This document shows positions 2,964 to 13,619 of a DNA stretch of 64,000 nt, piece after piece (position 1 is the first letter of the stretch; every line of letters begins with the position of its first letter). Below the pieces are notes generated by a model. That model was given only the letters and a program-made list of their open reading frames with translations, had not been told where the DNA came from and ran no database searches. The position numbers were made by a program, and so were the translations under genes. Location: the NCBI RefSeq assembly GCF_011764445.1, contig NZ_BLPG01000001.1:7519001-7583000 (forward strand), written 5' to 3'. The DNA comes from Phytohabitans rumicis (GTDB lineage: Bacteria; Actinomycetota; Actinomycetes; Mycobacteriales; Micromonosporaceae).

Positions 2964-3020
2964 GGGGCGTGGCGCAGAATCCTCGGCCGAGGCCACAACC
3001 GGGGGAAAAGGTGTGTCGCA

Positions 3021-5618
3021 ATGATCGAGCCGTACGTGTTGGATCTTCAAGAGGTTGACGGGACGCGGGTCGCGGTCGTTGGCGGCAAGGGCGCGCACCT
3101 GGGGGAGTTGTCGCGGATCGAAGGCATCCGGGTGCCGGCCGGGTTTTGCGTGACGACGGACGCCTTCCGGCGGATCATGGCGGACGCGCCGTCGATCGAC
3201 GATCGGCTCGATCGGCTGTCGCGCCGGAACCCGGATGACCGGGAGGTGATCCGCACGCTCAGCGCGGAGATCCGCCAAACCATCGAAGGGATCGCGATCC
3301 CTGACGATCTGGCGACGGCGATCACCCGCGCGCTCGCGCGGCTCGGCGAGCACGCCGCCTGCGCCGTGCGATCCAGCGCGACGGCCGAGGACCTGCCGAC
3401 GGCTTCCTTCGCCGGTCAGCAGGACACCTACCTGAACGTCGTGGGTCCGGCGGCGATCCTCCAGCACGTCGGCCGGTGCTGGGCGTCGCTGTTCACCGAG
3501 CGGGCCGTGACCTACCGCCTGCGCAACGGCTTCGACCACCGGCAGGTCCGCATGGCCGTGGTCGTGCAGCAGATGGTCTTCCCGCAGGCGGCCGGCATCC
3601 TGTTCACGGCCGACCCCGTCACGGGCAACCGGAAGGTCGCCACCGTGGACGCCAGCTTCGGGCTCGGCGAGGCCCTGGTCTCCGGCCTGGTGAACCCGGA
3701 CGTCTACAAGGTGCGAGACGGCGAGGTCGTCACCAAGGCGGTTGCCGCCAAACAGCGTGCCATCCACGCGTCGCCGGCCGGCGGGACGCAGGAGGTGGCG
3801 ATCGACCCGCAGCGGCAGCGGCAGCCGGCGCTGACGGATGCGCAGGTCGTCCGGCTCGTGCGGCTCGGCCGGCGGATCGAAGCGCACTTCGGCCGCCCGC
3901 AGGACATCGAATGGTGCCTGGTCGATGACGGCTTCCAGATCGTTCAGAGCCGGCCGATCACCACGCTGTTCCCCATCCCCGAGACCGGCGACCAGGACAA
4001 TCACGTCTACCTCTCCGTCGGCCACCAACAGATGATGACCGACCCCATGAAGCCGCTGGGCATCTCCGTGTGGCAGCTGACGGCCATGGCGCGGATGCAC
4101 GAGGCCGGCGGGAGGCTGTTCGTCGACGCCACCCAGCGCCTGGCCTCGCCCGCGAGCCGCGCCGGCTTTCTGGAGATGGTGGGGAAATCCGATCCGCTGA
4201 CCGGGGACGCGCTGGAGACCATCCTCGACCGCGACGACTTCGTCCCGACGCTCCCGGACGGTGGTACCGGCGGGCCGCCACCGGGCGGCGCATCCACCCC
4301 GATCGAGACCGATCCGGCCATCGTCACCGGGCTGATCGAGCGCAGCCAGGCGTCCATCGCCGCCCTGCGGCGCGACATCCGGACGAAGACCGGGCCGGCG
4401 CTGTTCGACTTCCTGCTGGAGGCGTTCCAGGAGCACAAGCGGGTCCTCAGCGATCCGCTGAGCGCACAGGCGATCATGGCGGGGATGGCGGCCACCTGGT
4501 GGCTCAACGACCGGCTGCGGGAGTGGCTGGGCGAGAAGGACGCGGCCGACACGCTCACGCTGTCCGCCCCCGACAACGTCACGTCGGAGATGGGGCTGGG
4601 GCTGCTCGACGTCGCGGACGTGATCCGCCCGCATCCGCAGGTGGTGGCGTTTCTGCAGGACGTCGAGGACGAGGGCTTCCTGGACGAGCTGCCGAAGCTT
4701 GCGGGCGGGAGCGAAGCGCGCGACGCCATCGAGGCATACCTCGACCGGTACGGCATGCGCTGCGGCGGCGAGATCGACATCACGAGGCCGCGTTGGCGCG
4801 AACGCCCCACCACGCTCGTGCCCGTGATCCTCGACAACATCAGGCTCTTCGAGCCGGGCGCTGCCAAACGGCGCTTCGAGCAAGGGCGGCAGGAGGCGCA
4901 GCGGAAGGAACAGGACGTGCTGTCACGCTTGCGGGCCCTGCCGGACGGTGCGCAGAAAGCCGACGAGACCAAGCGGATGATCGACCGGGTCCGGACCTTC
5001 ATCGGGTACCGGGAGTACCCGAAGTACGACATCGTCAGCCGCTACTTCGTCTACAAGCAGGCATTGCTGGCGGAGGCCGAGCGCCTCGTGCGGGCCGACG
5101 TGCTCCCCGAGAAGGAGGACATCTTCTTCCTCACGTTCTCCGAGCTCCACGACGTCGTGCGCACCAACCAGGTGGATGACCACCTCCTCCAGCAGCGCAA
5201 GGACGCGTTCCGGTCGTACCAGGCGCTCACGCCACCCCGGGTGCTCACGTCGGATGGCGAGGCCGTCGCCGGGGCGTACCGGCGTGACGACGCCCCGGCT
5301 GGTGCCCTGATCGGCTTGCCGGTCTCCGCCGGGACCATCGAGGGGAGGGCCCGCGTCATCCTTGACATGGCGGAGGCAGATCTCGAAGCGGGCGACATCC
5401 TGGTCACCGCCTACACAGACCCCAGCTGGTCGCCCCTGTTCGTCGCGATCGCGGGCCTGGTGACGGAGGTGGGTGGCCTGATGACCCACGGCGCGGTGAT
5501 CGCCCGGGAATACGGCTTGCCGGCCGTCGTGGGTGTGGAGCAGGCCACCCGGCTGATCCGGGACGGGCAGCGGATCCGCGTGCACGGATCCGACGGGTAC
5601 GTCGAGATCCTGCCTTGA
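3021..5618 (+). CDS. rph: rifamycin-inactivating phosphotransferase (Rph)
   Basis: 865 residues, the family length. Rph transfers the beta phosphate of ATP to the C21 hydroxyl of rifamycins, giving inactive 21-phosphorifamycin, AMP and Pi, in the cytoplasm. Domain order fits: an N-terminal PEP-synthase-type ATP-grasp domain (residues 1-315; GGKGAHLGEL near 22, CAVRSSATAEDLPTASFAGQ near 115, QSRPITT near 310); a central rifamycin-binding domain opening with HVYLSVGHQQMMTDPMKPLG; and a C-terminal swivelling domain with the catalytic His in GGLMTHGA (H823). The RAE at 2945-2963 supports resistance rather than PEP synthase function. ATG at 3021 follows a purine-rich gggggaaaagg. It ends 3 bases before a convergent gene. 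Confidence 0.95.
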   Translation: MIEPYVLDLQEVDGTRVAVVGGKGAHLGELSRIEGIRVPAGFCVTTDAFRRIMADAPSIDDRLDRLSRRNPDDREVIRTLSAEIRQTIEGIAIPDDLATAITRALARLGEHAACAVRSSATAEDLPTASFAGQQDTYLNVVGPAAILQHVGRCWASLFTERAVTYRLRNGFDHRQVRMAVVVQQMVFPQAAGILFTADPVTGNRKVATVDASFGLGEALVSGLVNPDVYKVRDGEVVTKAVAAKQRAIHASPAGGTQEVAIDPQRQRQPALTDAQVVRLVRLGRRIEAHFGRPQDIEWCLVDDGFQIVQSRPITTLFPIPETGDQDNHVYLSVGHQQMMTDPMKPLGISVWQLTAMARMHEAGGRLFVDATQRLASPASRAGFLEMVGKSDPLTGDALETILDRDDFVPTLPDGGTGGPPPGGASTPIETDPAIVTGLIERSQASIAALRRDIRTKTGPALFDFLLEAFQEHKRVLSDPLSAQAIMAGMAATWWLNDRLREWLGEKDAADTLTLSAPDNVTSEMGLGLLDVADVIRPHPQVVAFLQDVEDEGFLDELPKLAGGSEARDAIEAYLDRYGMRCGGEIDITRPRWRERPTTLVPVILDNIRLFEPGAAKRRFEQGRQEAQRKEQDVLSRLRALPDGAQKADETKRMIDRVRTFIGYREYPKYDIVSRYFVYKQALLAEAERLVRADVLPEKEDIFFLTFSELHDVVRTNQVDDHLLQQRKDAFRSYQALTPPRVLTSDGEAVAGAYRRDDAPAGALIGLPVSAGTIEGRARVILDMAEADLEAGDILVTAYTDPSWSPLFVAIAGLVTEVGGLMTHGAVIAREYGLPAVVGVEQATRLIRDGQRIRVHGSDGYVEILP

Positions 5619-5621
5619 TGG

Positions 5622-6806
5622 TCACGCCGTCGACTTGTTGCGACGTCCGCCGGTCGTGGCGAGCATCCGCGACGAGATGGCCAGCCGCTTCGCCAGCTTG
5701 TAGGTCTTGATCGGGCTGCTGCTGACCGTCTCCTTGTAGAAGATGGCCGCCCGACCGGTGAGGTACCAGCGCCGAGGGGTGTCGTCGCCGTAGGTGAACT
5801 GGATGACCGCGTCCTTGCGCCCGAGGCTGACCGGCTGGTGGAGGTAGCCGAAGCGGAACGGCTTGAGCTGCTTGCCCTGCAACTGGCGGGCGATGTTCTC
5901 GGCGGCGTGCGCCGCGGTCGGAATGCCGCTCTGGCAGGTGCCGTGGATGACGCCGTACGCCTGGCGGATCGCGGCCGCGTCGCCGACGGCGTAGATCTCC
6001 GGGTGCGACACCGACCGCAGCATGGCATCGGTGATGATGCGCCCGTGCTCGTCGGTGGCGATCCGGGACTCGGTGGCCAGTGGGGCCACGCGCACGCCGG
6101 TGGTCCACAGGCAGCCGTCGGCGGCGACGAACTCGCCACCTTCCAGTTCGACCCCGCCCGGCATTACCTTGGTCACGCTGACGCCCGCCCGGACGGTCAC
6201 GCCCAGCCGATCCAATGCCGCCATCAGGTACGCGCGGGCCTTGGTGCCCATCATCGCGGCCGGCTCGCCCTGGCTGAGCAGGGTGACCCGGACGTTCGGG
6301 TGGGACTCGGCGATCTCGGTCGCGGCCTCGATCCCGGTCAGGCCGGCGCCGCAGACGAGGAATTCGCTGTTGCCCTGGTGCGCGAGGTGTGCGGCCATGT
6401 CCTGTGCGCTCTGCGGGCTGTTGAGGGTGAAGGCGTGCTCGGCGACGCCGGGGACGCGGCTGGTGTCGGTGGTGCTGCCGATCGCGTACACCAGTGTGTC
6501 GTAGCCGATTGAGACCTTGCCGCCGTCCACGGTGGACACCGCGACGGTGCGCGCGGCGGTGTCGATCCCGGTCGCCCAGCCTTGTACGAAGTCGATGCCG
6601 GTGCCGGCCACGATGTCCGGGATGAGGTGCTCGGCGAGCTGCTGGCCGGTGGCGACCTGGTGCATCCGCAGCCGCTCGGTGAACCTTTCCCACGGGTTGA
6701 CGAGGGTGACGTGCACCTGTCCCTTGGCACGTTTCGCCGCGCCGAGGGCCGCGAGCATGCCGGTGTATCCGGCGCCGATCACAACTACCTGCTTGATGTC
6801 AGTCAT
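5622..6806 (-). CDS. FAD-dependent pyridine nucleotide-disulfide oxidoreductase (NDH-2-like)
   Basis: 394 residues starting MTDIKQVVVIGAGYTGMLA, a Rossmann FAD-binding GxGxxG. A second dinucleotide motif (FLVCGAGLTGIEAATEIAE) lies near residue 150, and the C-terminal FAD contact IYAVGDAAAIR near 290. This is the two-Rossmann layout of type II NADH dehydrogenases and related reductases; it lacks a CxxxxC redox pair. It follows the SigJ-type sigma gene by 50 bases on the same strand. ECF41 sigma factors are characteristically adjacent to oxidoreductases they control, so it is probably the sigma factor's target. The open frame extends upstream, but ATG at 6806 gives the conserved N-terminus. Confidence 0.9.
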   Translation of the reverse strand: MTDIKQVVVIGAGYTGMLAALGAAKRAKGQVHVTLVNPWERFTERLRMHQVATGQQLAEHLIPDIVAGTGIDFVQGWATGIDTAARTVAVSTVDGGKVSIGYDTLVYAIGSTTDTSRVPGVAEHAFTLNSPQSAQDMAAHLAHQGNSEFLVCGAGLTGIEAATEIAESHPNVRVTLLSQGEPAAMMGTKARAYLMAALDRLGVTVRAGVSVTKVMPGGVELEGGEFVAADGCLWTTGVRVAPLATESRIATDEHGRIITDAMLRSVSHPEIYAVGDAAAIRQAYGVIHGTCQSGIPTAAHAAENIARQLQGKQLKPFRFGYLHQPVSLGRKDAVIQFTYGDDTPRRWYLTGRAAIFYKETVSSSPIKTYKLAKRLAISSRMLATTGGRRNKSTA

Positions 6807-6845
6807 GCCCCACGGACGAGACGGCCGCACCCAACCGTGAGCCGC

Positions 6846-6861
6846 TGTGACCGCCGTCACA
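6846..6861. promoter_or_regulatory. palindrome at the sigma-oxidoreductase junction
   Basis: TGTGACCGCCGTCACA overlaps the last codons of the sigma gene, 40 bases before the oxidoreductase start. On the minus strand it is TGTGACGGCGGTCACA, which fits the CRP-type pattern TGTGA-N6-TCACA. It also contains GTCACA, resembling the ECF41 -35 element (TGTCACA as I recall), with a CGTC further downstream. Which protein uses it, if any, is undecided. Confidence 0.4.
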
Positions 6862-7717
6862 AACCAGTGACGGCGGTGAGCTTCTCCGGATTGCTGATCA
6901 GGTGAATCTCCCGGGCGCGCCCGTCGACGAGGTGCAGCACGATGACCGCCGCCGGGGTGTCGCCGGAGTAGATGACGATGCCGGGGCCGCCGTTGACCTC
7001 GGTCACCACCACCCGCGGCTCCTGCGGCATGCGACCGGCGAAGGTGACGAGCGCCCGCGCCACCAGGTCGATTCCCTCGATCGCCTTGCGCGGCGCCGGC
7101 GCCAGCCCGCCGCCGTCGCACACCAGCCGGACGTCCGGCGCCAGCACCTGCATCAGCGCGGCAAGATCACCACCGGTGCTCGCCGACATGAACGACTCCG
7201 TCACCTTGCGCCGGGTCGCCTGATCGGTGTCATAGCGCCGCCGCTTGCGGCTCACATGCTCACGGGCGCGCGACGCCGTCTGGCGCACCGATTCGGGGCT
7301 GCGCTCGACAATCGTGGCGATCTCGCCGTACGAGTAGCCGAACGCCTCGTGCAACACGAAGACCGCCCGCTCCAGGGACGACAACGACTCCAGGACCAGC
7401 AGCATGGCCAGCGACACCGACTCCGAGCGGGCCACGTCCTCGGCGACGTCGGGCGTGGTCAGAATGGGCTCGGGCAGCCACGGCCCGACGTAGGTCTCGC
7501 GCCGGGACGCGGCGCTGCGCAGGCGATCGATCGCCAGCCGGGTGGTCACCCGGACCAGATAGCCCTCCGGGTTCTCGACCTGCCCGGCGTCGACAGCGCT
7601 CCACCGCAGCCACGCGTCCTGCACGACATCCTCGGCGTCGCTCCAGCGGCCGAGCACCCGGTACGCGACGGCGTGGAGACGGGAACGATGCTGGCCAAAG
7701 ATCGCGTCATGCTGCAC
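6857..7717 (-). CDS. ECF41-family (SigJ-type) RNA polymerase sigma factor
   Basis: 286 residues, longer than a minimal ECF sigma because it carries the C-terminal SnoaL-like domain that defines ECF41. Region 2 is FGQHRSRLHAVAYRVLG..DAEDVVQDAWLRW (about residues 7-40). Region 4 is LSSLERAVFVLHEAFGYSYGEIATIVERS (about 112-140). The extension (about 175-286) ends with a DGRAREIHLISNPEKL motif, where the family has its conserved regulatory NPxKL. In this group the extension acts in place of a separate anti-sigma factor. The oxidoreductase gene lies 50 bases downstream. Divergent from the TPR gene at 7833. Confidence 0.93.
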   Translation of the reverse strand: MQHDAIFGQHRSRLHAVAYRVLGRWSDAEDVVQDAWLRWSAVDAGQVENPEGYLVRVTTRLAIDRLRSAASRRETYVGPWLPEPILTTPDVAEDVARSESVSLAMLLVLESLSSLERAVFVLHEAFGYSYGEIATIVERSPESVRQTASRAREHVSRKRRRYDTDQATRRKVTESFMSASTGGDLAALMQVLAPDVRLVCDGGGLAPAPRKAIEGIDLVARALVTFAGRMPQEPRVVVTEVNGGPGIVIYSGDTPAAVIVLHLVDGRAREIHLISNPEKLTAVTGL

Positions 7718-7832
7718 CCGCCAAGCCTAAGGCGTGTTTTTCGGCGACCCGCGCGGTACGAAGGTAGGGGACCTGAGCCTCTGCGGGCATCTCTCTCAAC
7801 CACGCCGAGCCGTCGCTGGACGCGCGGGGGAG

Positions 7833-8795
7833 ATGACCGCTGCGCCCGGCTGGCGCGGAGCGTGGAATCTGGTCAGGGCCCGGCAAGGTCACCAGCGCGC
7901 GTTGCGGCTGTGGCGTGCCGGGCGCCTGCGCCGCGCCCAACAGCAGGTCGTCAGAGCCATCGCCCTCTTCGACGGCGCCGCTGTCGTGGAGTTGGTCGGC
8001 GCGCTGCTCACCCTCGCCGACTTCGAGTTTCAGCTGGCCCGCTACGCCGATGCCGAAGCCACCCTAGGGCGAGCCATCCGCCTGCTCGACGCGGCGCCGC
8101 GTGCTGAGCCGTGCCAGGCCACGCTGGTCGACGCGTTGATCCGCCTCGCCAACAGTCAACGCCGGCAGGGCAAGCTCGACGTCGCCGAAGCCACGTTGCG
8201 TGGCGCCATCGCCGGTCCTGCCGAGCACGCCACACCGGTGGAACCGCTCAGCGCGGTCAACAACGCGCTCGGCGTGGTGTACAAGGACGCCGGCCGCTAT
8301 GCCGAGGCAGCAGAGCGCTACGCCGCCGCCCTCGCCACGTCCACGCACACCGACCTGACGGCCTGCATTTACCACAACCTGGCCGGGTTGGCGCACGCCG
8401 AGGGCCGGTTCGCCGACGCCCTGACACCGGCCCGCACCGCCCTCATGCTGCACCGGCGCGAGCACGGCCCGACCGCGACCGAGGTCGCCGCGGACGCGGC
8501 GGTACTCGGTGCGGTCCTGCTCGGCTTGGGCCACCTCGACGAGGCCGAAACCCAACTCGGCCAGGCGTACCGGATCTGGGTCCGTCGCTTCGGCCCGGAC
8601 CACTACGAGGTCGCCGTGTGCCTGCACAGTCTCGGTGTGGCGCGGTACCGCCGCGGCGATCCGGCGGCGGCCCTTCGCTCGTTGGACGAGGCGCTACGGA
8701 TCAAGACCAGCGTGCTCGGCCCCGACCACCCGGAAATCGCCGCCCTGCAACACAACCTGGCCGTCGTGCACGCCCACCCACGCCCGGCACGGTAA
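7833..8795 (+). CDS. tetratricopeptide repeat protein
   Basis: About 320 residues of tandem helical repeats. Clear TPR units are ADFEFQLARYADAEATLGRAIRL, RLANSQRRQGKLDVAEATLRGAI, NNALGVVYKDAGRYAEAAERYAAAL, YHNLAGLAHAEGRFADALTPARTAL and SLGVARYRRGDPAAALRSLDEAL. It ends with the kinesin-light-chain-like GPDHPEIAALQHNLAVVH. No catalytic or DNA-binding domain is present, so it is likely a protein-interaction scaffold. The frame is open to 7734, but ATG at 7833, preceded by gggggag, starts just before similarity begins. It is convergent with the response regulator at 8804 and no specific role can be given. Confidence 0.8.
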   Translation: MTAAPGWRGAWNLVRARQGHQRALRLWRAGRLRRAQQQVVRAIALFDGAAVVELVGALLTLADFEFQLARYADAEATLGRAIRLLDAAPRAEPCQATLVDALIRLANSQRRQGKLDVAEATLRGAIAGPAEHATPVEPLSAVNNALGVVYKDAGRYAEAAERYAAALATSTHTDLTACIYHNLAGLAHAEGRFADALTPARTALMLHRREHGPTATEVAADAAVLGAVLLGLGHLDEAETQLGQAYRIWVRRFGPDHYEVAVCLHSLGVARYRRGDPAAALRSLDEALRIKTSVLGPDHPEIAALQHNLAVVHAHPRPAR

Positions 8796-8803
8796 TGAGG
8801 GTT

Positions 8804-9487
8804 CTACGGCACCGCGGGGCGCGGTGGCATCAGGCCGTGTTCGTACGCGAATACGACAATTTGGACGCGGTCGCGCAGTCCGAGCTTGCGGAGGATCGCG
8901 CCGATGTGCGTCTTCACTGTGGACTCGCTCGCGTACACCGTGGCGGCTATCTCGGCATTGGACATGCCGCGTGCGGCGGCGGTGAAGACGTCCCGTTCCT
9001 TGTCGGTGAGGGCGAGGTAGGACTCGGGCGTCGGGACGGGTGCCCGGAAGTGGTTGTCCATCAGGGCTGTCAGGTCGGGCGGTGCGAGGACGGCGTTGCC
9101 GGAATGGACGGTGCGGATGGCGTCGCGCAGCATCACCGGGGTGGTGTCTTTGAGGAGGAAGCCGCTCGCGCCGTAGCGGATCGCGGTGGCCGCCCGGTCG
9201 TCCAGGTTGAAGGTGGTCAGGACCAGCACGCGCACGGGTTTGGCCCGCCTGCGGACCCGCTCGGGCAGAAAGATCTGCCGGGTCGCCTCGACGCCGTCCA
9301 TGTGCGGCATCCGGATGTCCATCAGCACGACGTCGGGTGCCAGGTCGTCGACGAGGCGGACCGCCTCGAGCCCGTCGCCGGCGGCGCCGACCACCGACAT
9401 GCCGTCTTGCGCGTCCACGATGACCGCTACGCCCGAGCGGAACAGTTCCTGGTCGTCGGCGAGCAGCACGCTGATCGGGTCGGTCAC
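8804..9487 (-). CDS. NarL/LuxR-family response regulator (last gene of van-like operon)
   Basis: About 227 residues. The receiver domain begins VTDPISVLLADDQELFRSG. The phospho-acceptor Asp is D57 in VVLMDIRMPHMDG, and the conserved Lys is in GFLLKDT. The C-terminal LuxR helix-turn-helix is LTDKERDVFTAAARGMSNAEI, then STVKTHIGAILRKLG. GTG at 9487 overlaps the kinase stop as GTGA, so it is preferred over GTG at 9514. It should be the partner of the DesK-type kinase encoded immediately before it. In classical van operons the regulator (VanR) is OmpR-like, so a NarL-type regulator here is a departure. Confidence 0.93.
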   Translation of the reverse strand: MTDPISVLLADDQELFRSGVAVIVDAQDGMSVVGAAGDGLEAVRLVDDLAPDVVLMDIRMPHMDGVEATRQIFLPERVRRRAKPVRVLVLTTFNLDDRAATAIRYGASGFLLKDTTPVMLRDAIRTVHSGNAVLAPPDLTALMDNHFRAPVPTPESYLALTDKERDVFTAAARGMSNAEIAATVYASESTVKTHIGAILRKLGLRDRVQIVVFAYEHGLMPPRPAVP

Positions 9488-10770
9488 GGCAGTGACCGCC
9501 GCACGGGGATCCACGCGGTCGCGGTGAACCTTGGCTCGCCGGCGACGTCACGCCGGTCGACGTCGAGCCGGCCGCCGGCGGACTCGACCCGTTCCCGCAT
9601 GCCGGTCAGGCCCTGGCCGGCGGTCCAGTCCGGCAGCCAGGTGGCGGGCTCGGCCGCCGCGACGTTGCTCACCGAGATCCTCAGCGTGGCCTCCCAATCT
9701 CCGTCCGGCCATCGGCGTTCCACGGTGATGGGGCGATCACGCCGGCCGTGTTTCATCGCGTTTGTCGCCATTTCCTGCAGCGTCCGGAACGCGGTCAGTT
9801 CGAGCTCGGGCGGCATCGGCTGGGGCGCGCCGGACTCCGTCGAGGCGACCTCGTGGCCGCTCGTGCGCAGCCCTTCGACGAGGCTGTCCAGCCCTGGCGT
9901 GGGAGCCGCGATGCCCTCCTGTGTGGCCGACAGCACGTGCCGGACGCTCTGCAGCGAGGTGCGGGCCGAGTCGGCGATGTTGGCCAGGGTCGTCTTGAGG
10001 GCCGCTGGATCGCCGTCGGGCAGGTACTGGCCCGACTCGGCCTGGGCGAGGATCACCGCGAGCGAGTGGCCGACCACGTCGTGTACGTCGCGGGCGAGAC
10101 GGGCTTGGTCTTCGCGTAGCCGGGCGATCTGCCGCGCCTGCGCCCGGTCCGCCTCGGCCCGGGCGACGTCGACCGAGGCCAGGTCGGCCGTCGTCCGAGC
10201 TCCCGCGGCCACGCGCAGCACCATGCCGGCCATCCACGGCAGACCCAGCAGCGCCGCGCCGATGACGATGGCACCCGGCTGCCACTGCTCCGCGAGGTTC
10301 GCCAGGGCGCTCAGGTCGATGAAGCCGGACAGGACCCGCCGGATGTCGCTGGCGAGGAAGCGGACGGCGACGATCGCGCCGGCCGGGATGGACAGCGCGC
10401 TGAGCCAGACGATCGCCGTGCTGCCCCAGCGGGCCGTGCCGAACGCCACCACCACGACCGCCAGCTCGGTGGCGAGGATCGGTACGCCGACCAGCACATG
10501 TGTCCCGGCCAGCACCCACACCGTCGCCAGCGCGGCGCCGGGGGCGAGGCGGCTGAGACCGATCGCCGCCCCCATGACGATCGCGACCACCGCGAGCAGC
10601 GCCACCTGACGGTAGGGGCTCAGCCCGAGCGGCACGGCCCCGGCGTATTCGTCGAACGCGCCGTAGTTCAGGATCGCGATGACCAACCCGAGAGCCGCCA
10701 CGATCAGCCCGGCCGCGGCGTCCGGCAGCCACTCCTGCCACGCAGCGTCAGGATGGGGCGGCGAGTGCAT
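9484..10770 (-). CDS. DesK/NarX-type sensor histidine kinase (van-like operon)
   Basis: 428 residues. The N-terminal half carries about six hydrophobic segments (about residues 17-185) with little extracellular sequence between them. A short linker follows, then the HisKA_3 dimerisation helix with phospho-acceptor H230 in ARDVHDVVGHSL, and an HATPase domain with EMATNAMKHG and TAGQGLTGMRERV. The kinase therefore senses membrane or wall state, or a small ligand, through its helices, unlike VanS with its two helices and loop. Its ATG overlaps the ligase gene by 23 bases and its stop overlaps the regulator, implying translational coupling through the five-gene unit. Confidence 0.92.
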   Translation of the reverse strand: MHSPPHPDAAWQEWLPDAAAGLIVAALGLVIAILNYGAFDEYAGAVPLGLSPYRQVALLAVVAIVMGAAIGLSRLAPGAALATVWVLAGTHVLVGVPILATELAVVVVAFGTARWGSTAIVWLSALSIPAGAIVAVRFLASDIRRVLSGFIDLSALANLAEQWQPGAIVIGAALLGLPWMAGMVLRVAAGARTTADLASVDVARAEADRAQARQIARLREDQARLARDVHDVVGHSLAVILAQAESGQYLPDGDPAALKTTLANIADSARTSLQSVRHVLSATQEGIAAPTPGLDSLVEGLRTSGHEVASTESGAPQPMPPELELTAFRTLQEMATNAMKHGRRDRPITVERRWPDGDWEATLRISVSNVAAAEPATWLPDWTAGQGLTGMRERVESAGGRLDVDRRDVAGEPRFTATAWIPVRRSLP

Positions 10771-11707
10771 CGCTGATCAGCGTATCGAGCAGTTCCGGGT
10801 ACGCGATGCCCGCCGCGGCGAACATCCGCGGTACCTGCGACTGGCTGGTGAAGCCGGGCGTGGTGTTGACCTCGTTGAGGACCGGACCGTCCGCGGTGAG
10901 GAAGAAGTCGACCCGCGCGACGCCACGGCACCCCAGCGCGTCGTACGTCGCCAGCGCGGCGTGCTCGAGCGCCTTGCGGTCCGCCTCGTCCAGCGGAGCC
11001 GGTACCCGGAACACAGCCGATCCGTCGTACTTCGTGGCGTAGTCGAAAACGCCGCCGGCGACCACGACTTCCAGCGCGGGGGCGACGATCCGGGTCCCGT
11101 CCGGGCGGGCCAGCACGGCGAGATCCACCTCCCGGCCGTCGACGACGTCCTCGACCAGCACCCGGTGGTCCACCGCGAGCGCGGCGGCGAGCGCGGTGGC
11201 CAGCTGCCCGGGCCGGTCCACCCGGGCGACGCCTTGGCTCGAGCCGGCCGAGACCGGTTTGACGACGACCGGGTGGGTCCAGGCGTACGTGGCGGCGGTC
11301 GCGGCGGTGAGCAGGACACCCGGCGCGGTCGCGATGCCGATGGCCTCCGCCACCAGCTTGGTCACCCACTTGTCCATCGCGACGGCGCCGGCGGTCAGCC
11401 CGGAGCCGACGTACGGCACGCCGGCGAGGTCGAGCAGGGCCGACAGCGTGCCGTCCTCACCGCGTGGCCCGTGCACCAGCGGCATCGCCACGTCGCAGCC
11501 GCGCAGCACCTCGACAGCGGCGGCCAGACCGATCGGCCGGTCGCTCCCGTCCCGCCAGCCGCCGTCGACGCCGATGGTCAGGACCACCACGTCGTACCGG
11601 TGGGGACCGAGCGCGGCAGCGGCAGCGGCCGCGGAAGCGAGGGAAACCTCGTGTTCGCAGTTCTGGCCGCCGCCGATGACGGCGACGCGGGAACGGGGTG
11701 TGTTCAT
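10748..11707 (-). CDS. D-alanine--D-alanine/D-serine ligase homologue (ATP-grasp)
   Basis: 319 residues. The N-terminal substrate motif is GGGQNCEHEVSLAS (E18 and the Ser align with the family E-H-x-V-S). The middle has HPVVVKPVSAGSSQGV (ATP grip) and an omega-loop-like FDYATKYDGSA. The C-terminal Mg site is GVARVDFF...GPVLNEVNTTPG. The DYATKY loop is closer to D-Ala-D-Ala and D-Ala-D-Ser ligases than to VanA-type D-lactate ligases, and there is no vanH-like dehydrogenase nearby. It joins two D-amino acids for peptidoglycan precursors in the cytoplasm. ATG at 11707 overlaps the racemase stop as ATGA. Second-residue specificity cannot be settled by eye. Confidence 0.9.
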   Translation of the reverse strand: MNTPRSRVAVIGGGQNCEHEVSLASAAAAAAALGPHRYDVVVLTIGVDGGWRDGSDRPIGLAAAVEVLRGCDVAMPLVHGPRGEDGTLSALLDLAGVPYVGSGLTAGAVAMDKWVTKLVAEAIGIATAPGVLLTAATAATYAWTHPVVVKPVSAGSSQGVARVDRPGQLATALAAALAVDHRVLVEDVVDGREVDLAVLARPDGTRIVAPALEVVVAGGVFDYATKYDGSAVFRVPAPLDEADRKALEHAALATYDALGCRGVARVDFFLTADGPVLNEVNTTPGFTSQSQVPRMFAAAGIAYPELLDTLISDALAAPS

Positions 11708-12861
11708 GGCAGGTTCCCATCCGGGGCGGGGTGGTCGGCGGCGATGACGTGGCGGCGGAGCCGGGGGCCGAGCCGGGTCACCAGCTCGTGCGGGATCGTG
11801 TCGGCCCAGCCGGCCCAGTCCGCGAGCGTCGGCTCCCCGGCGTCGCCCGGGCCGAACACGGTGGCGGTCTCGCCGGGCCGCACCGGATCGGTGCCGAGAT
11901 CGACGACGAACTGATCCATGGAGATCCGGCCGGCGAGGCGGCGTCGCCGGCCGCGGACGTGCACCTCGGCACGGGGCCAGGCATTGCGTGGCAGGCCGTC
12001 GGCGTACCCGACGGGTACCAAGCCGAGGGTGGTCGCCGCCCCCGTCCGCCAGGCGTGCCCGTAGCCGACCGGGGTCCCCGCCGGGACGCGTCGCACGGCC
12101 ACGATGGGAGCGGTCAGGCTCAGCGCGGTGCGCAGAGCGGTGGTACCGGTCGGGTCGATGCCGACCAGCGCCGCGCCGACGCGTACCAAATCGAAGTGGG
12201 ATCGTGGATCGGTGAGGGCCGCCGCCGAGGCGGCCAGATGGCGCACGGCGGGCCGCAGCCCCGCGCCGCGGGCTATGGCCGCGCCCCACTCGAACAGGCG
12301 CCGGCCGGCCGCGTTGGCCGGGTGCCCCGGTGTCTCGGCGCACGCGAGGTGTCCCATCACCCCGACCACCCGGATCCGCCCGTCCTGCTCGGCCGCGCGG
12401 GCCCGCCGGCACAGGTCGAGCCACGCCTCCGGCTCGGCGCCGTCGCGGGCCATGCCGGTGTCCAGATGCAGATGAACGCGGGCGGGACCGGCCGCGCCGG
12501 CGATCGCGTCGAGGTGGGCGCCGCTGGGGACCGCCAGGTCGACCCCTCGGCGCACCGCCGCGCCGAAGTCGGCGTCGAGCGGGTTGAGCCAGCTCAGCAC
12601 GGGTACCCGCAGCCCAGCATCGCGCAGCGCGACGGCTTCGTCGACGCTCGTCACGCCCAGCCAACCCGCCCCGGCGGCCACGGCCGTGCGGGCGACGTCG
12701 ACGGCGCTGTGGCCGAAGCCGTCCGCCTTGACCACGGCCATCAACCCCGCCGCGGTACGCCGCCTGAGCAGCCGGACGTTCTCCGCGACCGCGCCCAGGT
12801 CGACCGTCAGCCGCGCGGCTCCGCCAAGCGCCTCCCGCCGGGCGAGCGCGAGTGCCGTCAT
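11704..12861 (-). CDS. alanine racemase-family PLP enzyme with altered active site (possible serine racemase)
   Basis: 385 residues, fold-type III PLP racemase. The PLP lysine is K45 in MAVVKADGFGHS. The second catalytic Tyr is in VPVGYADGLPR, and RISMDQFVVDLG supplies the Met-Asp pair. Two usual residues differ. The Lys of HLKxDTGMxRxG, normally carbamylated, is His (HLHLDTGMARDG). The Tyr of TINYE(V/I)VTR, Tyr354 in the Geobacillus enzyme, is His358 (TIPHELVTRLGPR). That is the position where VanT serine racemases carry Asn. It lies between the D,D-dipeptidase and the ligase, with ATGA overlaps at both ends. Unlike VanT it has no membrane domain. It could supply D-Ala or D-Ser. Confidence 0.9.
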   Translation of the reverse strand: MTALALARREALGGAARLTVDLGAVAENVRLLRRRTAAGLMAVVKADGFGHSAVDVARTAVAAGAGWLGVTSVDEAVALRDAGLRVPVLSWLNPLDADFGAAVRRGVDLAVPSGAHLDAIAGAAGPARVHLHLDTGMARDGAEPEAWLDLCRRARAAEQDGRIRVVGVMGHLACAETPGHPANAAGRRLFEWGAAIARGAGLRPAVRHLAASAAALTDPRSHFDLVRVGAALVGIDPTGTTALRTALSLTAPIVAVRRVPAGTPVGYGHAWRTGAATTLGLVPVGYADGLPRNAWPRAEVHVRGRRRRLAGRISMDQFVVDLGTDPVRPGETATVFGPGDAGEPTLADWAGWADTIPHELVTRLGPRLRRHVIAADHPAPDGNLP

Positions 12862-13481
12862 CCGGCCGGCTCCGCCAGGACCGGGCCGTACAGCGCGGCG
12901 GGCGCGCCGGTCATCAAGGCCCAGTACCGGTCGCCGTAGCTCCAGTGCCACCACTCCGTCGGGTAGTTCACCAGGCCAGCACCGCTCAGCACCTTCGCCA
13001 TCAGCTCCCGGCGCGCCCGGGTGTCCGTGTCGATCCCCGCCGCGGCGAAGTAGCAAGCGCCGCCGGACTGCTCGGGCGTCGCGTCGATCGGCGTACCCAT
13101 GTCCAACTCCGCGCCCTCGGGGTCCACCAGCGTCAGATCCACCGCCGCGGCCGCGACGTGCGGAGCCACCTCGACCGGCGACACGAACCTGCTCGTCAGA
13201 CGGTGCAGCTCGGCGTCGGGCAGCCCCGGGTGAAGGCGACGTAGCTCCGTCGAATAGGCCGCGATGATGGACCGCTGCTGCCGAACCGGACGGTGACCCT
13301 CCACCACCCGCAGCCGAAGGTCGGCCGGTAAGGCGTCCCGAGCGGCGGCGAGCCGTTCCGCCAGGCCCCGACGAACCCACGCCCGCGCCGGCCCGAAGTC
13401 CGCGTCGAGGCGTACCAACGGCTCGGCGGCGTCGTGCACCGGCACGGCCGCGACCCGAGGATCGGAAAGCAAGACTGTCAT
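12858..13481 (-). CDS. VanX-like D-Ala-D-Ala dipeptidase (M15 zinc peptidase)
   Basis: 207 residues, matching VanX length. All catalytic positions are present: Arg in VVEGHRP (R64), zinc ligands H108 and D115 in APHVAAAAVD (VanX spacing H-x6-D), general base E176 and ligand H179 in PTEWWHWSYGDRYW. VanX hydrolyses D-Ala-D-Ala so that only modified precursors reach the wall. No signal peptide is seen, so it should act in the cytoplasm like VanX. It is the first gene of the unit, followed by racemase, ligase, kinase and regulator with overlapping ends. A candidate regulator site (direct CTCAGGT repeats at 13521-13548) lies upstream. Salvage of wall dipeptides is an alternative role. Confidence 0.9.
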   Translation of the reverse strand: MTVLLSDPRVAAVPVHDAAEPLVRLDADFGPARAWVRRGLAERLAAARDALPADLRLRVVEGHRPVRQQRSIIAAYSTELRRLHPGLPDAELHRLTSRFVSPVEVAPHVAAAAVDLTLVDPEGAELDMGTPIDATPEQSGGACYFAAAGIDTDTRARRELMAKVLSGAGLVNYPTEWWHWSYGDRYWALMTGAPAALYGPVLAEPAG

Positions 13482-13520: not shown

Positions 13521-13548
13521 CTCAGGTGCCGCAGCGTCGTCCTCAGGT
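13521..13548 (-). promoter_or_regulatory. direct CTCAGGT repeats upstream of the van-like operon
   Basis: CTCAGGT occurs at 13521-13527 and again at 13542-13548, exactly 21 bases (two helical turns) apart, 40-67 bases upstream of the dipeptidase start. On the transcribed strand the repeats read ACCTGAG. Same-face repeats of this kind suit a dimeric response regulator, most simply the one encoded at 8804-9487. No convincing -10 element was seen. Confidence 0.4.
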
Positions 13549-13619
13549 AGCGAAGGACCGGCACCCCGGGTGGTCGGGAGCGGGGTAGCCTGTGCCGGGC
13601 TCGATCATGGAGGTCTGTG

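Follow-up and report, generated by a model that had tools for sequence, protein, structure and literature searches.

A VanX-racemase-ligase operon under a HisKA_3/NarL-type two-component system in Phytohabitans rumicis is a candidate D-Ala-D-Ser-type switch of the peptidoglycan terminus

The 64,000-nucleotide stretch of the Phytohabitans rumicis genome that was analysed (hereafter the window) raises the question of what an actinobacterium does with a VanX-type dipeptidase, an alanine racemase (Alr) homologue and a Ddl-family ligase placed in one operon with a sensor kinase and a response regulator. Replacement of D-Ala by D-Ser at the end of the peptidoglycan precursor confers low-level vancomycin resistance on some enterococci, and D-Ala-D-Ser glycopeptide resistance has been described from enterococci and related Bacillota. 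The original prediction recognized VanC/VanG-type enzymatic logic in the operon, and our analysis supports it: with a probability of roughly 0.64, the operon is an inducible, self-contained peptidoglycan-terminus switch similar to the VanC/VanG D-Ala-D-Ser systems.

The five minus-strand genes follow one another in the order vanX, racemase, ligase, kinase and regulator (Table 1). Their successive overlaps, recomputed from vanX on, are 4, 4, 23 and 4 bases, which confirms the predicted run of five overlapping leftward genes together with its positions. For the regulator, the list of open reading frames also contains an alternative upstream GTG start, which would extend the gene to 9514.

Table 1. 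Features of the operon in the window
Feature	Positions	Strand	Evidence
VanX-type D,D-dipeptidase, M15 family, 207 aa	12858-13481	-	Pfam PF01427 Peptidase_M15, 56 bits; Foldseek; invariant residues
Alr-family racemase, soluble, 385 aa; putative serine racemase	11704-12861	-	Pfam Ala_racemase_N/C, 187/127; residue survey
D-Ala:D-X ligase, 319 aa; putative D-Ala:D-Ser ligase	10748-11707	-	Pfam Dala_Dala_lig N/C, 80/174; NCBIfam; residue survey
HisKA_3 sensor kinase, 428 aa, six predicted membrane segments	9484-10770	-	Pfam HisKA_3, 54; hydropathy
NarL/LuxR-type response regulator, 227 aa from GTGA start	8804-9487	-	Pfam Response_reg, 83, and GerE, 58
Putative operator TACCTGAGG-N12-CACCTGAG, a site pair with 21-bp spacing, located 40-68 bp upstream of vanX	13521-13549	-	Operator conservation

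The gene order is not confined to this genome, a point on which the original prediction was at stake. It recurs in 42 of 80 named loci, or in 43 if one locus with the kinase and regulator genes upstream is counted, as scored by tblastn with reference proteins, a procedure that tolerates unrecognised intervening genes. Because the same order is found in 42 loci, the five-gene operon is real and its order is beyond chance. All loci were found by VanX, those with kinase and regulator genes are skewed in their taxa (22 of 43 are from Nocardioides), and two pairs of loci (L051 and L069, L052 and L109), whose contigs agree in length and whose hits match, were taken as the same contigs and counted once. 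Carriers of the operon family include Nocardioides, Jiangella, Paractinoplanes, Oerskovia, Frankia and further genera. About 3 kb separates racemase and ligase in one locus (L113), and vanX stands alone in nine of the named loci, including one whose contig ends just past it (L093). Clustering of the neighbouring genes yielded mainly artefacts, antisense frames called by a crude gene finder.

The expectation of a six-helix HisKA_3 kinase and a LuxR-type regulator in place of VanRS was borne out by the Pfam matches and by six hydrophobic segments; the HATPase_c domain of the kinase scored 20.5, under the Pfam cut-off of 26.4. Ahead of vanX, paired YACCTSAGG sites with a spacing of 21-22 bp are present in 31 of the 47 loci with kinase and regulator genes, and no further perfect match to the window's operator pair occurs elsewhere in the 10.7-Mb genome.

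The dipeptidase had been described as VanX-like with a full set of catalytic residues, which proved correct: the metal-binding and catalytic residues Arg64, His108, Asp115, Glu176 and His179 are invariant in all 12 aligned sequences (the window protein and 11 of the 22 relatives found). Its AF2 model (mean pLDDT 85.8) has VanX as the top PDB match in Foldseek (1r44, E 1.2e-7, TM about 0.57) and VanXYc as the second structural match, and by sequence VanX was the only solved chain found. The racemase passes the NCBIfam alr model (242 bits, cut-off 168). With 295 and 275 bits, the ligase likewise exceeds the cut-offs (262 and 246) of the two general models for D-Ala-D-Ala ligases. Scores against the NCBIfam VanX, VanT and Van-ligase models are far under the respective cut-offs.

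In the racemase, His358 occupies the position of the gatekeeper Tyr354 of Geobacillus Alr, and in the phmmer alignment it is paired with Tyr361 of Streptomyces lavendulae Alr (counted by hand). We know of no characterised enzyme with a gatekeeper His. Among the 67 distinct VanX-linked racemases that could be read at this position, 63 have His, four have Asn and none has Tyr; L100 and L129, with unreadable racemase frames, are omitted from this count. Tyr is found in five out of five solved Alr structures compared and in 37 of 41 control Alr sequences, the others having Trp (1) or Asn (3). The best-scoring 30 controls, from 58 places ranked by similarity to the host housekeeping copy, comprise 29 Tyr and 1 Trp, and the further 11 comprise 8 Tyr and 3 Asn; these were drawn from 20 extra genome stretches. 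According to the passage on this enzyme in PMC3485190, the gatekeeper residue of VanT is Asn. In the tree, a branch with a support of 100 has the VanX-linked racemases together on one side. From its sequence, we infer that the window enzyme is a serine racemase. However, three small-genome members of the family (G016, G018 and G019) have one Alr-family gene each, with Asn at the gatekeeper, so the Asn enzyme can evidently supply D-Ala and the gatekeeper signature is no proof of serine.

The window ligase has Phe221, Tyr227 and Gln291 at the positions of Tyr210, Tyr216 and Leu282 of E. coli DdlB. Tyr210 was fixed as the discriminating position with the translated E. coli ddlB and the pair 1iov/1iow, which differ at Tyr216, and Tyr216 is retained in 13 other aligned rows checked. 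All 82 distinct VanX-linked ligases (after a duplicate of the window sequence was dropped) have Phe at Tyr210, as do VanG (4fu0) and VanA, the latter a D-Lac ligase; the 35 control Ddl have 33 Tyr and 2 Phe. The first 30 of them, the top of a list ranked by similarity to the host housekeeping copy, are all Tyr, and the further five are 3 Tyr and 2 Phe. The Asn and Phe residues in the further controls weaken the case for a D-Ser switch and strengthen the rival reading of D-Ala supply. Two features of the VanG ligase are absent from the window ligase, namely Arg at Leu282, where it has Gln and 27 of 30 controls have Met, and the Glu of EKY, which is replaced by Thr (TKY); VanG shows SRYP. VanC2 Phe250, a second-subsite Phe as in VanG, and VanC2 Arg322 were reportedly described by Healy, Park and Walsh in 1998. 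The VanX-linked ligases form one side of a branch with a support of 96. Ten ligases of G009, G016, G018 and G019 comprise 3 with Tyr and 7 with Phe at Tyr210, the latter including the operon ligase of G009 and a VanA-like one; one strong ligase in each of the four combines Phe with Gly at 282. In agreement with the D-Ser reading, four more Alr-Ddl pairs, from the extra genome stretches and with no VanX in the 6 kb fetched, carry the residues of the VanX-linked enzymes (racemases 3 His and 1 Asn, ligases 4 Phe/Gln).

The window ligase also keeps the KY motif and the equivalents of DdlB Ser150 and Tyr216, and is free of the marks of a D-Lac ligase (a VanA-like omega loop without KY, or Phe at Tyr216 as in LmDdl2). 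With this KY motif kept and no VanH dehydrogenase among the five window genes, the D-Ala-D-Lac reading was rejected, in line with the earlier view that D-lactate is unlikely. We infer that the enzyme is a D-Ala:D-Ser ligase. A search for a second alr and ddl, proposed along with the original prediction, turned up one more Alr and three more Ddl-like ligases, so that the genome holds two Alr and four full Ddl-like ligases, operon copies included. With these extra copies, the operon is not the sole source of Alr and Ddl in this genome, as a housekeeping set would be. Plasmid-borne 'vanT' annotations were low-identity predictions, and the one opened had no adjoining van cluster.

The lack of a membrane domain in the racemase had been taken to set it apart from known van operons. 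The enzyme is indeed soluble, with zero membrane segments by hydropathy, but the difference is not clean: in the enterococcal vanL operon the membrane and racemase genes are split (NCBIfam has an entry 'VanT-L catalytic subunit'), and a separate acyltransferase-3 (AT3) gene is present in 26 of the 56 named VanX-Alr-Ddl loci (Pfam-confirmed in six of six tested), though not among the five window genes. In VanT, a domain of this AT3 family is joined to the racemase in one protein, as stated in the relevant part of PMC9558356. In two loci (L014 and L056), an unrelated PALP enzyme occupies the racemase slot and the ligases fall inside the same clade; serine racemases are among the closest solved relatives of the L014 enzyme. 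The ligases of the PALP-Ddl-VanX type form a separate clade in the ligase tree, and a separate PALP-VanX-Ddl locus lies in the same genome, on contig C2.

In the mechanism that we propose, the DesK-type six-helix kinase would sense a wall signal and the NarL-type regulator, judging from the operator conservation, would bind the paired YACCTSAGG sites and switch on its own operon. The racemase, with its gatekeeper replaced, would turn L-Ser into D-Ser, and the ligase, with its second subsite altered, would couple D-Ala and D-Ser. VanX, by its family and residues, would degrade D-Ala-D-Ala from the housekeeping Ddl, and the housekeeping MurF would load the new dipeptide. Lipid II would then end in D-Ala-D-Ser and bind glycopeptides more weakly, as established for VanC-type systems (PMC4790382). 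A separate AT3 membrane protein may replace the membrane domain of VanT in many relatives.

The same observations bear on other readings. The operon might serve D-Ala supply or salvage, the extra Alr and Ddl boosting D-Ala-D-Ala and VanX recycling it, or might be a D-cycloserine-resistance set. The general NCBIfam models passed by racemase and ligase agree with this, and the Asn enzyme as the sole Alr of three relatives indicates that the change is compatible with D-Ala synthesis. However, the loss of Tyr at the gatekeeper in 67 of 67 readable racemases and at Tyr210 in 82 of 82 ligases speaks against the salvage alternative of the original prediction, and making D-Ala-D-Ala next to an enzyme that hydrolyses it would, we reason, amount to a futile cycle; we regard this reading as quite unlikely. 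If the switch instead installed some D-residue besides serine, for instance a polar or larger D-amino acid, the result would be a new peptidoglycan terminus. The gatekeeper His, neither Tyr nor (mostly) Asn, and the ligase Gln, which matches neither VanG nor most controls, point in this direction, but we consider it improbable given the VanT residue Asn in four related racemases, the separate AT3 gene at 26 of the 56 loci and the serine-racemase-like PALP enzyme in the same slot of two loci. Even less credible to us is a free D-Ala-D-X dipeptide made for secondary metabolism and not for the wall. Recruitment of ATP-grasp ligases is common among actinobacteria, and the four Alr-Ddl pairs noted above had no VanX within the 6 kb fetched; VanX in the operon nevertheless fits wall editing, albeit in loci found by VanX, and a MurF-like gene lies divergent to vanX in L052.

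The D-Ser switch, if true, would represent a large environmental reservoir of a modular, self-regulated system, unmentioned in the available parts of the survey PMC8698665, and a possible forerunner of VanT, split or fused, that could be put to the test; the DesK/NarL system with its own operator would offer a handle on which wall signal is sensed. A bolder extension, which we think doubtful, is a widespread actinobacterial switch to a terminus that is neither D-Ala nor D-Lac and maybe not D-Ser, with His and Gln defining a new D-residue. The fused enterococcal VanT would then descend from a modular form represented by this operon family, in which AT3, racemase and ligase are separate and one or the other of two unrelated racemases occupies the slot, and some relatives with Asn in the sole Alr and Phe/Gly ligases would wear such a wall constantly.

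Like the enterococcal vanC, vanE, vanG, vanL and vanN operons, the window operon combines a racemase, a ligase, a D,D-peptidase and a two-component system. The racemase gatekeeper is altered in both, Phe at Tyr210 with KY kept is common to the window ligase and VanG, and an AT3-family membrane protein, part of VanT in the enterococci, has a gene of its own in the 26 related loci mentioned above. In contrast to these operons, the window has what looks like VanX and not VanXY (neither VanXY nor VanY was recognised among the five genes), a HisKA_3/NarL system with a GerE-type regulator and not VanRS with an OmpR-type one, a gatekeeper that is mostly His in the family, a ligase with Gln and without EKY, and NCBIfam scores under the Van cut-offs. 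In vanHAX, too, a two-component system controls VanX and a Ddl-family ligase, and VanA likewise has Phe at Tyr210, but the window operon has a racemase instead of VanH and a ligase with the KY motif missing from VanA.

The suggestion of an undescribed system stands in part. Our literature searches found no description of the VanX-racemase-ligase-HisKA_3-NarL operon, but the idea itself is older: related operons, with a D-Ala-D-Ser suggestion, appear in the available text of PMC8698665. Those of Allonocardiopsis, Murinocardiopsis and Geodermatophilales (racemase-Ddl-VanY-VanRS) likewise have an alanine or aspartate racemase adjoining Ddl, but with VanY and VanRS-type regulators, VanX being unmentioned in that text. 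The actinobacterial pdx operon (PALP-Ddl-VanX), for which its authors suggest D-Ala-D-Ser, has regulators described there as VanRS-like and a PALP enzyme termed serine-threonine dehydratase where the window has an Alr-family racemase; it resembles the window operon in its ligase, its VanX-type dipeptidase and its two-component system, with a PLP enzyme replacing VanH (PMC8698665).

In agreement with the original prediction, five leftward genes overlapping end to end were found on the minus strand, and their families were those expected. The successive overlaps, computed on the window operon, are 4, 4, 23 and 4 bases. The kinase has six hydrophobic segments, and none were found in the racemase or in VanX. 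The predicted structure of the window VanX (mean pLDDT 85.8, modeled from a 12-sequence alignment) had the VanX structure 1r44 as its top PDB match (TM ~0.57), VanXYc and VanYB chains coming next, and Arg64, His108, Asp115, Glu176 and His179 are unchanged in all 12 aligned sequences.

Positions of the operon, its putative operator and features at related loci (positions in related loci are counted within each locus)
Feature	Position	Strand	Content
Five overlapping genes, window	8804-13481	-	M15 VanX-type dipeptidase, Alr racemase, Ddl ligase, HisKA_3 kinase, NarL/LuxR-type regulator
YACCTSAGG pair, putative operator, window	13521-13549		Fits in the window by construction
L014 (G000:C2:198000-214000)	6553-13246		Second set of PALP enzyme (unrelated PLP family), VanX and Ddl, on a 1.03 Mb contig
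L018, P. rumicis	5878-6567		Third VanX-like gene
L052 (= L109), Allorhizocola	5657-6973		MurF-like Mur ligase (Pfam Mur_ligase_M, _C), divergent to vanX
L063 (G015)	2973-8353		Single run Alr-Ddl-MurG-like-VanX-AT3, a fuller wall-remodelling set

His358 of the window racemase aligns to Tyr361 of Streptomyces lavendulae Alr, as counted along the phmmer alignment. According to passages of PMC3485190, that residue equals Geobacillus Tyr354, said to set alanine specificity, and the gatekeeper of VanT is Asn (citing Patrick et al. 2002). In distinct VanX-linked racemases the gatekeeper was His in 63, Asn in 4 and Tyr in none (2 unreadable), versus Tyr in 29 and Trp in 1 of the 30 best-scoring control Alr sequences; the catalytic Lys and Tyr were retained in every row of both sets. 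Placed against housekeeping Alr, as had been proposed, the 67 linked racemases were split from the 30 controls by one branch of a quick tree (SH-aLRT 100), for which the gatekeeper column was kept in the alignment and L057 and L105 were marked as long branches.

The corresponding placement of the ligases put 71 of them on one side of a branch with support 96, leaving 11 PALP-Ddl-VanX ligases and VanA outside this clade, where VanA, like DdlB, is a long branch. The position of E. coli DdlB Tyr210 was discriminating, with Phe in 82/82 distinct VanX-linked ligases and Tyr in 30/30 best-scoring controls. The D-Ser ligase VanG (4fu0) reads FFDYTEKY against FYDYEAKY in DdlB and hence has Phe at this position, as does VanA, but without the KY. 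At the DdlB Leu282 position, Gln was found in all 71 clade ligases and Met in all 11 PALP-Ddl-VanX ligases; the 30 controls had Met (27), Ala (2) or Gln (1), and both VanG and VanA have Arg. Use of D-Ser by VanC2 is reportedly governed by Phe250 and Arg322, at the Tyr210 and Leu282 places (Healy et al. in 1998). Since Phe stands at the former and Gln, not Arg, at the latter, the clade ligases appear to possess one of the two VanC2-type D-Ser residues; the EKY motif is also missing. The equivalents of DdlB Ser150 and Tyr216 were retained in the rows checked, which, judging from passages of PMC7691350, would speak against a D-Lac ligase.

The operon enzymes are not the sole Ddl and Alr of the organism; had they been, the prediction would have been refuted. 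The P. rumicis genome (10.7 Mb, 3 contigs) encodes two Alr genes, four full-length Ddl-like ligases, plus four weaker ATP-grasp matches (28-46 bits), and three VanX-like genes. Tyr is the gatekeeper of the second Alr (L017) and also occupies the Tyr210 position in two further ligases, L015 and L016. The fourth ligase is a member of the PALP-VanX-Ddl locus on contig C2 (L014), where a MurG-like gene, a HisKA_3 kinase and a NarL-type regulator lie close by and the gene order differs from that of the published pdx operon. The third VanX-like gene (L018) overlaps a 998-aa open frame, and neither Alr nor Ddl was matched within the 12 kb around it. The 998-aa frame presumably resembles a SARP/AfsR-type regulator.

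A VanX match at E <= 0.001 was present in 31 of 61 genomes (own and relatives). As anticipated, other genomes share the five-gene order: it was found in 5/20 stretches from other genomes (G002, G004, G009, G024 and G030) and in 42/80 named loci, the best 80 of at least 571 VanX relatives, with architectures called by tblastn; 16 of the 42 have an acyltransferase-3 (AT3) gene between ligase and kinase. One further locus (L105) has the kinase-regulator pair (HK-RR) upstream of VanX-Alr-Ddl. Nocardioides accounts for 22 of the 43 loci with VanX-Alr-Ddl and HK-RR, and further genera with the order include Jiangella, Paractinoplanes, Hamadaea, Frankia, Kineosporia, Oerskovia, Frondihabitans, Tessaracoccus and Virgisporangium. 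Other named loci carry VanX-Alr-Ddl-AT3 without HK-RR (10/80), VanX-Alr-Ddl alone (3/80; in L096 and L142 the stretch stops at the ligase), Alr-Ddl-VanX (4/80), PALP-Ddl-VanX (8/80), a Promicromonospora arrangement (3/80) or VanX alone (9/80, including L093, truncated by its contig end). In a class-wide even draw of 393 genomes (requested completeness at least 90%), the VanX gene, irrespective of its neighbours, was found at E <= 1e-60 in 52 and at >=66% identity in 20, own genome counted.

Several of these loci show individual features. The ten VanX-Alr-Ddl-AT3 loci without HK-RR, from Lentzea (L112, L120, L128-L132, L134, L138) and Actinopolyspora (L123), lack the upstream CGGCACC element described below. 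In Promicromonospora (L108, L110, L118) an Asn-gatekeeper racemase is divergent to a Phe-type ligase, with VanX ~2 kb off. A frame of the L052 MurF-like cluster occupies the equivalent place in Kineosporia L104. In Frondihabitans sucicola (L100) and Lentzea indica (L129) the racemase is split over two frames, either by sequencing error or because the gene is broken.

Among the loci that include HK-RR, 33 of 47 have the heptamer CGGCACC 50-118 bp ahead of the vanX start, where mononucleotide shuffling gives an expectation of 1.0 of 47; among those lacking HK-RR it was seen in 0 of 13. The heptamer is part of a YACCTSAGG direct repeat with a period of 21 bp in 25/47 loci and 22 bp in 11/47 (together 31/47); other spacings gave 0-2 pairs and shuffles 0.0 at both periods. 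The shuffles overstate the evidence, as the sequences used to derive the motif are related to one another and are the ones in which it was counted. Among the 13 loci without HK-RR, the pair occurs only in L096, whose contig stops at the ligase. A genome search with the pair pattern gave zero other matches, perfect or with one mismatch, and 11 with two mismatches, not above the reversed-pattern control (48 in all). Having no other genomic match with up to one mismatch, the pair points to a dedicated local regulator.

Because the first 30 controls had been picked by similarity to housekeeping copies, 20 further places were added. Four Alr-Ddl pairs with no VanX in the 6 kb stretch (L212-L215) shared the signature of the operon enzymes (3 His, 1 Asn; 4 Phe/Gln). 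The 11 added control Alr had Tyr (8) or Asn (3), and the five added control Ddl had Tyr (3) or Phe with Gly at 282 (2), bringing the control totals to 37/41 Tyr, 1/41 Trp and 3/41 Asn for Alr and to 33/35 Tyr and 2/35 Phe for Ddl, the latter omitting additional ligases read from G009, G016, G018 and G019. A PF00842 search of G016 (L224/L233), G018 (L226/L234) and G019 (L220/L235), small genomes of the same family, detected no Alr-family gene besides those of the three Asn enzymes. A Phe/Gly-type ligase (SGVP) is present in G009, G016, G018 and G019 (among them ligases L238-L241). Judged from these residues, the signature belongs to Alr-Ddl pairs, yet is not exclusive to them, because an Asn enzyme is the only Alr-family gene found in three relatives and Phe ligases occur in four. 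The Asn enzyme there must still produce D-Ala somewhere; a paper title cited in PMC9866002 ascribes serine as well as alanine racemase activity to VanT. The walls of these three relatives may be permanently altered, or the signature may be compatible with D-Ala. G016 also has a VanA-like ligase (FRIHQEE, SRYP; L237, contig C8), adjoined by a weak VanX-like match.

Two clues favor serine. In L014 and L056 a PALP enzyme fills the slot beside VanX-Ddl, and their ligases sit inside the 71-ligase clade, grouping nearest with two Alr-Ddl-VanX ligases (support 85). Serine racemases 5cvc, 6lut, 3hmk and 3l6b are among the closest solved relatives of the L014 PALP, with threonine deaminase second; its first match, 1v71, we take to be the S. 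pombe serine racemase. The other clue is a separate AT3 gene in 26/56 named VanX-Alr-Ddl loci, PF01757 being confirmed in 6/6 AT3 genes tested; a frame in the L113 gap, included in this Pfam check, had zero family matches. According to passages of PMC9558356, VanT has its racemase fused to a member of this AT3 family.

No description of the five-gene operon was found among the literature titles and abstract openings listed, with few subscription journals covered. The portions of PMC8698665 consulted, a glycopeptide-resistance survey of Actinobacteria, describe the pdx operon and racemase-Ddl-VanY-VanRS groups, for which D-Ala-D-Ser is suggested; its main text does not contain 'Nocardioides', 'Kribbella' or 'LuxR'. 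These portions list Actinopolysporales without such genes and Kineosporiales with one vanRSY set. By contrast, the enzyme part is present in Actinopolyspora mzabensis (L123, lacking HK-RR) and the whole operon in Kineosporia rhizophila (L104).

The gene structure, its conservation, the altered active sites and the conserved upstream repeat are observed features of these loci. We infer the substrates, the precursor change and the inducer, and assign a probability of about 0.64 to the operon working like a VanC/VanG system, as a D-Ala-D-Ser cell-wall switch. D-Ala-D-Ser gives low-level resistance, according to passages of PMC4790382. Because the window operon differs from VanC/VanG in having no VanRS control, and its ligase has neither Arg at the Leu282 position nor EKY, we do not class it as a member of that group.
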